From: Arenibacter sp. F26102
GTDB lineage: Bacteria > Bacteroidota > Bacteroidia > Flavobacteriales > Flavobacteriaceae
Reading direction: 5' to 3'
DNA length: 64,000 bases
Assembly: GCF_023015865.1 (NCBI RefSeq)
Contig: NZ_JALKBC010000006.1
Location: 124,001-188,000, forward strand
Under the pieces are notes generated by a model, which saw only the letters and a list, made by a program, of their open reading frames with translations, did not search any database and had not been told where the DNA came from. Numbering within the stretch: the stretch's first letter is position 1; each line of letters starts with the position of its first letter. A program made the position numbers and the translations under genes. Shown here piece after piece: positions 46,148 to 50,837 of the stretch.

Positions 46148-46666
46148 CAGTGGTCAGTGGTCAGTAAAATTAACCTATTTGGAACCAAACTTTTCAGGGT
46201 TATTAATCATAAAATAGATTAGCTTCCCGATTTCCTGACTTTCACTTACCATCTCATCGAATATTTCCTTTTTAATATATTGACATTCCATCGCATATTC
46301 CATCCATACTTGGGTTTCCAAATTCTCAGCATCGCTATCAGTTAATTTATTGATGAAATATTTCGGATAAAGTCGCTTAGCATAAGATTCAGCAATATTA
46401 GCAGAAACACTTCTGGAAGATCTTCTTATTTGATCGGTCAAGGAATATCTTTCTTCTCTAGGAAATGTTTTCGAAATCTCAAAAATCCTCATAGCCAAGG
46501 CAAAAGATTTTTTATAAGCCATTAAATCCTGAAATCTCATAACTACTGATTATTGTTCAATACATTAAAAATAATGTCATCAAATTAATTGGCATAGAGG
46601 TCTGGCCAATATTTTTACGGTTGGCATTGATCCCACTATTTACTTTTTACTGACTACTGTTCACTA
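46148..46666. mobile_element. Putative small mobile unit: four-helix-bundle gene within a 22-bp inverted repeat
   Basis: Left end CAGTGGTCAGTGGTCAGTAA at 46148-46169; the right end at 46645-46666 is its reverse complement with 18 of 22 matches. The 519-bp interval holds one complete gene with little else. It lies between hemW and ruvC, beginning 6 nt before the hemW start. The layout resembles intervening sequences of 23S rRNA, which also carry a four-helix-bundle gene between complementary ends. Mobility is inference; no target duplication was recognised. Confidence 0.5.
46175..46540 (-). CDS. Four-helix bundle protein (23S rRNA IVS / Avd-like family)
   Basis: A 121-aa helical protein: FQDLMAYKKSFALAMRIFEI, the conserved turn FPREERYSLTDQIRRSSRSV, SANIAESYAKR, a long helix with AENLETQVWMEYAMECQYI, and EIGKLIYFMINNPEK. 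This is the family seen in 23S rRNA intervening sequences, and related to the Avd accessory proteins of diversity-generating retroelements. Avd binds nucleic acid and reverse transcriptase; stand-alone members have no known role. No reverse transcriptase is in the window. ATG start. Bounded by an inverted repeat. Confidence 0.9.
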   Translation of the reverse strand: MRFQDLMAYKKSFALAMRIFEISKTFPREERYSLTDQIRRSSRSVSANIAESYAKRLYPKYFINKLTDSDAENLETQVWMEYAMECQYIKKEIFDEMVSESQEIGKLIYFMINNPEKFGSK

Positions 46667-47793: not shown

Positions 47794-48065
47794 GTATGCC
47801 AGATTCTGGGCGGAAATTACAATTTTTTGATCAAATTAAGGGGTGTAGCCTTCAATTTCCTCCTCAATAGTCTAATCCTATGGGCTACAATTTTCAAGAA
47901 ATAACCTTACCAACAGCACAGTGGCTACCCTATAGAAACAAATAGTAGCGTTTACTTATTGGTAATATGGTATTTCTGTTGTTCCGTAACAACAAGCATA
48001 GTAGTGGGCAATACCCCGTCCCTAAATAGAACTCTGTCCAAGTGACTATCTCAGTCATTTTGAGA

Positions 48066-48531: not shown

Positions 48532-48840
48532 CCAAGTCCTGGGAAAGCACATAATATTACCAATAGACAACTTAAATTAGGAAAACCCTAAAGCTAGTTA
48601 GAGCGTCACACTCGTACTTGAGCCTTCCAATACTGAATACATGTAGGCACGAGCGGGGGCTTCTCTCACGATACGCATCGGGAGTCCCTAAAATGGGACT
48701 CTGTCGAAGTGACTGGACCAGTCATTTCGACTGCTAAGGAGAAATCACACAGGTAGCTGTACGAAAATTGTAAATTAAAGGGAAAAAAGTAATATGTCTT
48801 AAAACAAAATATTAAATTTTAATAGTTCCGCGCCAATCTT

Positions 48841-49073
48841 GTGCGACTTCTCGTCATCCACAAAATGGGACTCTGTCTAAGTGACCACTCTGGTCATTTC
48901 GACAGAGCGATAGCGACGAGAAATCTCACTTGTAACTAAACCAAAACATCAATTGTGTGAATAAATTTTCAGCATTGAACTATAAACAATATGCATTGAT
49001 TAAAACCATTGTATGTGCGACTTCTCGTCGTCCCTAAATGGGACTCTGTCGAAGTGACTATCTCCAGTCATTT
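48841..49073. repeat. 233-bp direct repeat left of the GIY-YIG gene
   Basis: Recurs at 49811-50043 (offset 970 bp), highly similar from about 48905 onward, including the nonpalindromic spacer AACTAAACCAAAACATCAAT. Confidence 0.75.
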
Positions 49074-49187
49074 CGACTGCTAAGGAGAAATCACACAAGT
49101 AGCTCAACGAAGTTTTGAAAGTTATCCGCGATGTAACTACCACTATGAACATGAAATATAGGATACCAAAATTAAAACCAAAACCTG

Positions 49188-49676
49188 TGCGACTTCTCTA
49201 TCGTTGAGAAAAAGCAACTCATGTCGAAGTGACTGCACGATTCATTATTGTAATCCAATTAAACAATCTGATTATTCAAGGATTCCCACCTAGGATTAAA
49301 AGCTGAAATAAGAGTATTCTTCTTATCCCTTCGCCACTTTTTAATTTCCTTTTCCCTCCCTATGGCATCTTTTGGGTTTTCAAAACCTTCGTAATACACC
49401 AAATAAATGCAGTTATATTTGCCCGCAAAAGATTTCTTGGAATTTTGACTATCGAAATAGTGCTGGGATAACCTACGCTGTATATTATTGGTCACTCCTA
49501 TATAGAGGGTTGTACGATGTTCGTTTGTGGTTATATATACAAAATGATTGTAAAACAATTAGAAGCTCGTGTTAGTGTTACCCAAATTTAGTTCATTATT
49601 CATAATTATTCGATAAACTCCTCATAGCAAAATGACCTCCCCTGTCATTTCGAATGAGCGATAGCGAGGAGAAACC
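49188..49676. mobile_element. GIY-YIG gene lying between two halves of one palindromic repeat
   Basis: The left half (GTGCGACTTCTC to GTCGAAGTGACT, 49188-49238) ends about 20 nt beyond the GIY-YIG stop. The matching right half (TGTCATTTCGAATGAGCGAT to GAGGAGAAACC, 49636-49676) lies about 75 nt before its start. Together they would form the usual hairpin with the gene in the loop. Mobility is inferred from this layout only. Confidence 0.45.
49259..49558 (-). CDS. GIY-YIG nuclease family protein
   Basis: A 99-aa single-domain nuclease of the YhbQ/UPF0213 type. The GIY-YIG core appears as FVYITTNEHRTTLYIGVTNN with the Y-I-G triplet. The catalytic Arg is in IQRRLSQHYFDSQ, and the metal-binding Glu lies in AIGREKEIKKWRRDKKN; LVYYEGFENP joins them. 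The start is a TTG directly after an in-frame TAA, with no ATG available. Such stand-alone domains cleave structured or branched DNA. The gene is surrounded by palindromic repeats and may act on them. Confidence 0.88.
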   Translation of the reverse strand: MFYNHFVYITTNEHRTTLYIGVTNNIQRRLSQHYFDSQNSKKSFAGKYNCIYLVYYEGFENPKDAIGREKEIKKWRRDKKNTLISAFNPRWESLNNQIV

Positions 49677-49810
49677 GAAGGTTCACGAATACCCCTTAAA
49701 TAAAATGTCATGAGCTAAATCGCACTGATAGCTCGACTTGAACTTGAATTATGCGCTGCAATTCACTCCTAACAACAATAATGAAAATGTGCCCAAACCA
49801 TAACCAATAT

Positions 49811-50043
49811 GTGCGACTTCTAGTCGTCCCGAAATGGGACTCTGTCGAAGTGACTATCTCCAGTCATTTCGAATGAGCGATAGCGACAAGAAATCTCACT
49901 TGTAACTAAACCAAAACATCAATTGTGTGCATAAATTTTCAGCATTGAACTATAAAAAATATGCATTGATTAAAACCATTGTATGTGCGACTTCTCGTCG
50001 TCCCAAAAAGGGACTCTGTCGAAGTGACTACTACAGTCATTTC
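49811..50043. repeat. 233-bp direct repeat right of the GIY-YIG gene
   Basis: Partner of 48841-49073 at a constant offset of 970 bp; the pair brackets the nuclease gene. Confidence 0.75.
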
Positions 50044-50321
50044 GAACGAAGGTGAGAAACCGAAGGTTCACGAATACCCATGAAATAAAATGTCATGAGC
50101 TAAATCGCATTAGAAGCTAACGTGAATTTGAATTGTGTGCTTAACTTCAACCACAATTTGAAATATAAACTGGCCAAAACCAAGCATGTGCAACTTTCAA
50201 TCATTGGGAAAAAGCAACTCATGTCCAAGTGAATGCCCCAGTCCTTCCCTATCCATGTAACAAATCCTCCCTATCTTCGTCAAACAGAGAACGTATTCCC
50301 GTCGGAATTTTAAAGAATAGT

Positions 50322-50837
50322 ATGGACATTGCATTGTTGATTATTGGATTTGTTTTAATGTTCGTTGGCGTATTGGGAAGTTTTCTACCGGTACTTCCGG
50401 GAACGCCTATAAGTTGGGTAGGCCTACTCCTCCTCTACCTTACCAAAGCCATTCCTGATGATTGGGTCTTTTTGGGAATAACCTTGGCCATTGCCATTTT
50501 GGTCTTTACCCTGGACTACATTATTCCGGTTTGGGGAACCAAAAAATTCGGGGGAAGCAAATGGGGTATGATAGGTACCACAATTGGACTTTTGGCAGCC
50601 CTAATATTTCCTGTTCTAGGGTTTTCAGGCATCATTGTTTGGCCCTTTTTAGGGGCATTAGTGGGAGAGCTTATTAACAAAGCAGACCAAAAAACGGCCC
50701 TAAAGGCCGCCTTTGGTTCTTTTTTAGGGTTTTTAACCGGTACCTTCCTGAAATTTATGGTCGCCATAATGTATTTAGGCCTATTTATATTTAAAGCTTG
50801 GGAATATAAATCGGACTTATTTCCTTTTTTTAATTAA
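50322..50837 (+). CDS. DUF456 domain-containing membrane protein
   Basis: A 171-aa integral membrane protein with five or so helices. DUF456 features: the N-terminal LLIIGFVLMFVGVLGSFLPV and LPGTPISWVGLLLLYL, LDYIIPVWGTKKFGGSKWG, IGLLAALIFPVLGFSGIIVW, and a Gly-rich AFGSFLGFLTGTFLKF. Function unknown. The ATG encoding MDIALLIIGF was chosen; the 31 upstream in-frame codons run through the repeat remnant and are polar. Convergent with the nitroreductase gene, 9 nt apart. Confidence 0.9.
   Translation: MDIALLIIGFVLMFVGVLGSFLPVLPGTPISWVGLLLLYLTKAIPDDWVFLGITLAIAILVFTLDYIIPVWGTKKFGGSKWGMIGTTIGLLAALIFPVLGFSGIIVWPFLGALVGELINKADQKTALKAAFGSFLGFLTGTFLKFMVAIMYLGLFIFKAWEYKSDLFPFFN

Follow-up and report, generated by a model that had tools for sequence, protein, structure and literature searches.

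Genes and repeats at the locus

The window, a 64,000-nt stretch of the genome of the marine bacterium Arenibacter sp. F26102, contains a GIY-YIG nuclease gene on the minus strand (49259-49558), an ORF with a TTG start and a TAA stop that encodes a protein of 99 aa. The protein matches Pfam family PF01541 (GIY-YIG) with 61.6 bits against a cut-off of 22.6, and its catalytic-type residues Y8, Y19, G21, R29, H33, and E69 are kept in 153 to 155 of 155 relatives. It is predicted to be a small protein made up of the GIY-YIG domain only, with the active-site-type residues in place. The dN/dS values of 21 Arenibacter pairs (median, 0.064; maximum, 0.21) reveal that the gene is under purifying selection in this genus. 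The nearest solved structures by sequence, 1zg2 (E = 0.0015) and 1ywl (E = 0.0028), are UPF0213/YhbQ-like GIY-YIG proteins, but the similarity is weak. A search with the PADLOC models of antiphage defense gave no convincing match, the matches being short and weak (best E = 0.0013 for the 99-aa protein).

The gene is embedded in an array whose palindromic units measure about 82 to 89 nt and recur with a period of about 174 nt; all units were read on the minus strand and scored with the unit model R1. The array includes the inner part of a decayed unit (48017-48063; 34.8 bits), an altered unit (48653-48750; 59.6 bits), an intact 89-bp unit (48841-48929; 83.2 bits), and an intact 82-bp unit that consists of a head-to-head pair of GTC-tagged hairpins (49015-49096; 96.1 bits, E = 2e-22). 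Beyond the gene follow another intact 89-bp unit (49811-49899; 83.9 bits), a unit with a nested insert in its outer arm (49985-50071; 80.7 bits), and a strongly decayed unit with a weak match (50188-50269; 16.9 bits, E = 0.054).

As the original prediction had it, direct reading of the sequence places the two halves of a further unit on opposite sides of the gene; both are on the minus strand. The downstream half (49187-49233) comprises an outer arm, GTGCGACTTCTC on the plus strand (49187-49198), and an inner arm, TCGAAGTGAC on the plus strand (49224-49233); the unit model gives a weak match here (49187-49289; E = 9e-5), the portion of which past 49233 enters the gene. The upstream half (49630-49725), which belongs to direct-repeat family D4 and is 82% identical to the half of the intact unit, comprises a partial inner arm (49630-49636), an inner arm, GTCATTTCGA on the plus strand (49644-49653), and an outer arm in two pieces, GAGAAA (49669-49674) and TCGCAC (49720-49725). 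The TCGCAC end is displaced by a nested 45-nt insert (49675-49719; direct-repeat family D6, 91%; no strand assigned), which is missing from the original description of the palindrome. The 45-nt element (CCGAAGGTTCACGAATACCC...) also occurs near 50060-50104, likewise nested within the outer arm of a repeat unit, and was found again in sister species.

The gene-bearing unit spans 49187-49725. When it is counted as one, the gaps between consecutive units are 90, 85, 90, 85, and 85 nt. Since the array spacing is preserved across the gene, the gene occupies one array slot, which argues against the halves being two separate decayed units. The position of the gene between the two halves of one palindrome unit is therefore confirmed.

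Structure of the repeat unit

The units fold better than their shuffled versions (z = -3.9 to -4.6), and each can be viewed as two hairpins in a head-to-head arrangement, GTC-ATTTC...GAAAT and GTC-ACTTC...GAAGT. Among 11 units, pairs within the hairpins form in 99.1% of cells and pairs of the full palindrome in 93.9%, and the palindrome is imperfect: one A.C mismatch and one T.G wobble are fixed in all 11 units. No covarying pair was found among the unit columns of the genus alignment, which consequently favors neither the monomer nor the dimer reading. However, the two halves differ compensatorily and other nuclease clades carry other stems behind the same GTC, and so the conserved object looks like a GTC-tagged monomer hairpin rather than an 82-bp palindrome. 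The Arenibacter stems are 5 bp long (ATTTC or ACTTC), with the tail CTCAC or CGCAC. The tag is TGTC at 49643-49646, AGTC in other units of the array, and TGTC in many flanks of clade A, the nuclease clade described below. An Rfam search yielded no family above the cut-off, with one chance-level match far below it.

Distribution in the genus Arenibacter

An orthologue with 86 to 99% identity is present in 7 of 18 Arenibacter genomes, including that of the window; the other 11 lack the nuclease gene. In all 7 carriers, a search tolerating two mismatches places the inner arms on the same sides of the gene; at one mismatch, the upstream inner arm was not found at the certesii locus, and the nearest downstream inner arm at the algicola locus is in the opposite orientation. 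An anchor gene (window 50319-50834) is present in 18 of 18 genomes, and the nuclease gene lies beside it in 6 of the 7 carriers. Where the original prediction had looked to identical copies at other loci, the genome of the window contains a single clade A gene, and in one sister species (G004) the gene lies in another place.

In G004, the anchor locus has neither gene nor array; both adjoin what we take to be a PEP-hydrolase-like gene elsewhere. The latter locus (L061 8368-10459) is nonsyntenic, and next to it lie a gap in the assembly and a near-duplicate of the edge of the array. Five other genomes contain a close relative of the PEP-hydrolase-like gene, and no repeat was found in these 3.9-kb loci; in four of the five, the relative is then followed by what is presumably a transporter-like frame, and in the fifth the region is degraded. 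The search for a clean empty site was negative. The gene and array of G004 were likely relocated, and a clean insertion is unproven because of the assembly gap at the locus.

Unit model matches were counted on both strands, with 150 of 1086 to 1681 candidates scored per genome. On this basis, the 7 carriers have 4 to 23 matches per genome, and the 11 noncarriers have 5 to 12 (six genomes), 1 (one genome), or none (four genomes). The presence of units in noncarrier Arenibacter genomes indicates that gene and repeat are not strictly coupled. At the intergenic site of the gene, four gene-less relatives (L080, L085, L086, and L087) hold other repeats (CTCCTTCCCTTGG...AAGGGAAGG and more). The site is a general repeat hot spot.

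Repeats flanking homologous nuclease genes

A scan based on the protein alone retrieved 448 stretches encoding a relative, the best 80 of which are the clade A loci. With one mismatch allowed, GTCATTTCGA-type half-repeats occur within 300 bp on both sides of the gene in 75 of these best 80 of 448, on one side in 4, and on neither in 1. The original prediction had named missing halves around other homologues as grounds against it, and this is not what the 80 loci show. Across the best 80 of 448, the density of GTCATTTCGA is 11.5 per kb within 150 bp, 5.4 at 150 to 300 bp, and 0.16 beyond 2 kb. This relation of motif density to distance was used in place of a scoring of inverted repeats in the flanks against mismatched locus pairs (78 of the 80 loci, 2 short ones omitted), which was a weak test because one motif is common to all loci.

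The nearest flanking motifs of the 75 loci (from the best 80 of 448) are inverted in 54 and direct in 21. The tags point toward the gene in 23 loci, as in the window, away from it in 31, and in the same direction in 21. The rule is therefore that the gene is flanked by cognate, mostly inverted hairpins, and the gene in a loop, which had been proposed from the window, is one arrangement among several. Loop insertion as a general rule was rejected, given that the tags face the gene in just 23 of 75 loci.

Clades B, C, and D were reached via other small GIY-YIG genes of the window's genome, and their loci are part of their matches. Exact motifs were counted within 300 bp. The count covers 29 of the 30 clade B loci and 24 of the 28 clade D loci, those of odd length being left out. 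The 80 clade A loci (best 80 of 448) have their own motif in 76 cases, that of clade C in 1, and that of clade B in 0. The own motif was found at 27 of the 29 clade B loci among the matches listed (that of A at 1, that of C at 0) and at 12 of the 22 clade C loci among the matches listed, with no foreign motif at the latter, and the motifs of A, B, and C were all absent from the 24 clade D loci among the matches listed. The clade C proteins form groups of 19 and 3, each with its own repeat (18 of 19 with one mismatch, and 3 of 3, respectively) and none crosswise. Four other GIY-YIG matches of the window's genome, with longer reading frames, have none of the A, B, or C motifs within 300 bp. Clades A, B, and C are each associated with a repeat of their own, and crossover is almost absent.

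The abundance of the repeats was compared with the presence of the genes in 149 Flavobacteriaceae genomes, each from a different genus. Of the 26 genomes with a strong B gene, 23 contain at least 5 B repeats; the same applies to 13 of the 29 whose B match is weaker and to 16 of the 94 that have no B gene. At least 5 A repeats were found in 12 of 18 genomes with a strong A gene, 1 of 48 with a weaker match, and 2 of 83 with no A gene; that is, 6 of the 18 strong A carriers have fewer than 5 A repeats, and this number is reached in 3 of the 131 genera that lack a strong A gene. A control with the reversed pattern gave no match for B and one for A. The P values for co-occurrence are near 1e-11, and they are too small since relatedness between genera was ignored. 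Repeat abundance follows the presence of the cognate gene, although not strictly; a strict dependence of the repeats on the gene was rejected owing to the repeats in gene-less Arenibacter genomes and gene-less genera. Many repeat copies are far from any such nuclease gene.

Homologues in other bacterial groups

Homologues were found in 31 records of a plasmid collection, 15 of which were analyzed. Reading by eye of 200- to 220-bp flanks revealed tagged hairpins on both sides of the gene in 13 of the 15 loci (Spirosoma, Planktothrix, two Sinorhizobium loci, Shinella, Rhizobium CIAT894, Aeromonas, Neorhizobium, Novosphingobium, Azospirillum, Neisseria gonorrhoeae, and two Sphingobium loci) and on one side in 2 (Photobacterium and Rhizobium tumorigenes). 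A perfect 7-bp stem after GTC occurs at 13 of the 15 loci, with a density of 3.22 per kb versus 0.28 in control stretches. Clades A, B, and C required a less strict definition. With a 5-bp stem after GTC, at least 1 hairpin lies within 300 bp at 76 clade A loci versus 23 control stretches (of the best 80 of 448), at 22 versus 11 of 29 clade B loci, at 20 versus 5 of 22 clade C loci, and at 15 versus 10 of 15 plasmid loci, so that clade B and the plasmid set are weakly separated from the controls by that measure.

A tree was built from a set of 155 proteins, from which 5 proteins with stops had been removed. Clade B is represented in it by 23 of its 30 loci, and clade D by 14 of its 28 loci, one of which was then dropped, together with 3 genes of the window's genome. 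Support is 0.94 for clade A, together with one plasmid-set member, 0.905 for clade B, 0.97 and 0.99 for the two clade C groups, and 0.945 for the main plasmid-set group, which has 13 members. The clade C groups jointly enclose the main plasmid-set group, and the placement of clade D is without resolution. Among the plasmid loci, the nuclease gene of Azospirillum lipoferum lies with paired REPs between sufB and sufC, and that of Planktothrix agardhii has an MmeI-type restriction enzyme gene on one side and the DISARM gene drmA on the other.

The REPs that flank the homologues of Alphaproteobacteria, Neisseria, Aeromonas, and Planktothrix are of the CGTC type. According to Di Nocera et al. (2013, PMC3733652), these repeats have the tag CGTC, or TGTC or CCTC, followed by a stem of 8 to 9 bp that starts with AT and mostly by the tail CCA; they form four families, are mostly dimeric and intergenic, and occur in several phyla. 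In the same text, the CGTC repeats appear to have no dedicated transposase, and what spreads them is left open. The repeats at the homologues of Alphaproteobacteria, Aeromonas, and Neisseria belong to this type (PMC3733652), and the Arenibacter repeat resembles them in its GTC tag followed by a stem starting with AT but differs in its 5-bp stem and in a tail other than CCA. Because of these mismatches in stem and tail, the Arenibacter repeat is CGTC-like and falls outside the four families as published there. The literature searched contained no link between bacterial GIY-YIG genes and REP or dRS3 repeats; in the one paper found to mention both "GIY-YIG" and "repetitive extragenic", the two terms occur in unrelated places.

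Relationship to known systems

The gonococcal GIY-YIG homologue shares 34 of 88 residues with the Arenibacter protein (39% identity over 88 aa), and its gene is flanked, in parallel to the Arenibacter gene, by CGTC-tagged hairpins of the GCGGGAAT type. This homologue may be the published Ssn. Ssn GIY-YIG nucleases and NTS repeats of Neisseria are said to have been described by Chenal, Veyrier and co-workers in 2025; Ssn, a small protein with a single GIY-YIG domain like that of Arenibacter, is reportedly specific for NTS repeats and cleaves single-stranded DNA only; it is said to have many homologues and to affect DNA uptake. A cognate repeat around the gene and elsewhere in the genome, a feature by which Ssn-type nucleases are reportedly recognized, was found in Arenibacter as well. 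Unlike Ssn/NTS, the Arenibacter repeat has the stem ATTTC/ACTTC, and the repeats are head-to-head dimers in arrays with a period of about 174 nt, with the gene within one dimer. The Arenibacter nuclease most probably belongs with Ssn/NTS. The nuclease/repeat partnership is real, but its kind is probably already known, and the claim of an undescribed system is not borne out, given the reported Neisseria work and the gonococcal homologue with its repeats.

The likeness to the RAYT/REP systems (REPtrons), in which a GIY-YIG enzyme would take the place of the Y1 transposase, was borne out by the flanking repeats at 75 of the best 80 of 448 loci and by the three clade-specific repeats: in both cases, a small nuclease gene is flanked by cognate hairpin repeats in clade-specific pairs. 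However, the Pfam search detected GIY-YIG-type families only, and lacking an HUH/Y1 enzyme, the system would work like RAYT/REP yet is not a member of it. The similarity to the GIY-YIG homing endonucleases of group I introns is a weak one of the catalytic core (NCBIfam, 23.5 bits), far under the curated cut-off of 56.05, and the 99-aa protein is without their DNA-binding C-terminal domain; the Rfam search gave no sign of an intron at the gene.

Proposed function and alternative explanations

The match of the repeats to their own nuclease branch suggests that the enzyme recognizes them, and it may help to maintain or spread them. The gene is in our judgment probably a REP-associated GIY-YIG nuclease that targets the GTC-tagged hairpin of the surrounding array. 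In view of the reported Ssn work, recognition and nicking of the hairpin are likely, and we hold with reasonable confidence to the proposed recognition, cleavage, and strand state of the target. The nuclease would most likely recognize the GTC-ATTTC...GAAAT or GTC-ACTTC...GAAGT hairpin in single-stranded or extruded DNA and would nick it at or near the GTC tag. Repair and recombination at the nicks could then duplicate, move, and rearrange the repeats and occasionally the gene, so that nuclease and repeat would persist together. We propose this part, a role of the nuclease in spreading the repeats, tentatively and with somewhat less than even confidence. An added effect on DNA uptake is possible by analogy with what is reported for Ssn in Neisseria.

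Strong purifying selection, the conserved locus in 6 of 7 carriers, and the existence of a gonococcal homologue that has flanking repeats too would also fit a domesticated, Ssn-like factor of DNA uptake or array recombination, for which the repeats are host sites spread by other enzymes. This explanation is unlikely but deserves to be kept in sight. Of the 18 Arenibacter genomes, 11 lack the gene, and each nuclease clade has different repeats, both of which are more like an element travelling with its enzyme.

A homing-type selfish gene would cut gene-less palindromes in double-stranded DNA and be copied into the loop by break repair, with the array as its homing site. The filling of one unit slot with the array spacing kept, the single-domain GIY-YIG protein within its own putative target, and the gene and array at another locus in G004 agree with such a gene. 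Nevertheless, efficient homing would have filled more than one of the many gene-less units in the window's genome, the placement of the gene relative to the tags varies, and homing alone does not explain why unfilled repeats multiply with the gene, which makes it improbable. Still less probable is a passenger role, in which mobile or dispensable genes accumulate in palindrome arrays as hot spots and the enzyme and the repeat have no functional link. Varied repeats at the intergenic site in gene-less relatives and units without the gene are compatible with a passenger of this kind, but not the clade-by-clade association with one protein family, the purifying selection on the nuclease gene, and its co-occurrence with distant repeat copies. 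That the flanking hairpins merely regulate the nuclease mRNA and are unrelated to its substrate is the least credible explanation, since, although the units fold and have a fixed orientation to the gene in the window, no Rfam family exceeded the cut-off, many repeat copies are distant from any such gene, and co-occurrence and clade-specific repeats would be left unexplained.

The clade-by-repeat match offers a candidate enzyme for the CGTC repeats in several phyla, and many natural enzyme/hairpin pairs are now on hand for specificity tests. Should the nucleases prove to cut their hairpins, the flanks of a gene would reveal its target, and the same type of nuclease/repeat partnership would have arisen at least twice from unrelated enzymes. 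More speculatively, the GIY-YIG superfamily may supply the missing enzymes of the CGTC REPs, each clade recognizing, cutting, and spreading its own GTC hairpin in at least 3 phyla and moving within or among its copies, as a "GIY-YIG REPtron" independent of RAYT/REP, with tRNA genes as the target of clade D; we regard this wider proposal as possible but rather doubtful.

GIY-YIG genes adjoining tRNA genes

The GIY-YIG genes of clade D adjoin tRNA genes. In the window's genome, they lie at genes for tRNA-Leu (L003/L004), tRNA-Arg (L008-L010), and tRNA-Pro (L013-L015) in two or three tandem copies. Each copy has a tRNA 5' half with an additional palindrome in front of it, and behind the last one comes an intact tRNA. 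The literature search on GIY-YIG genes at tRNA genes returned nothing relevant. Among the matches listed, 24 of the 28 relatives (L249-L276) have a tRNA gene on the same strand, within 300 bp in 23 cases, and 3 of the 4 loci without one end at contig ends.

The window also contains a minus-strand ORF (46175-46540) for a 121-aa protein, which we take to be of the four-helix-bundle type; its neighbors are presumably radical-SAM-like and RuvC-like genes.
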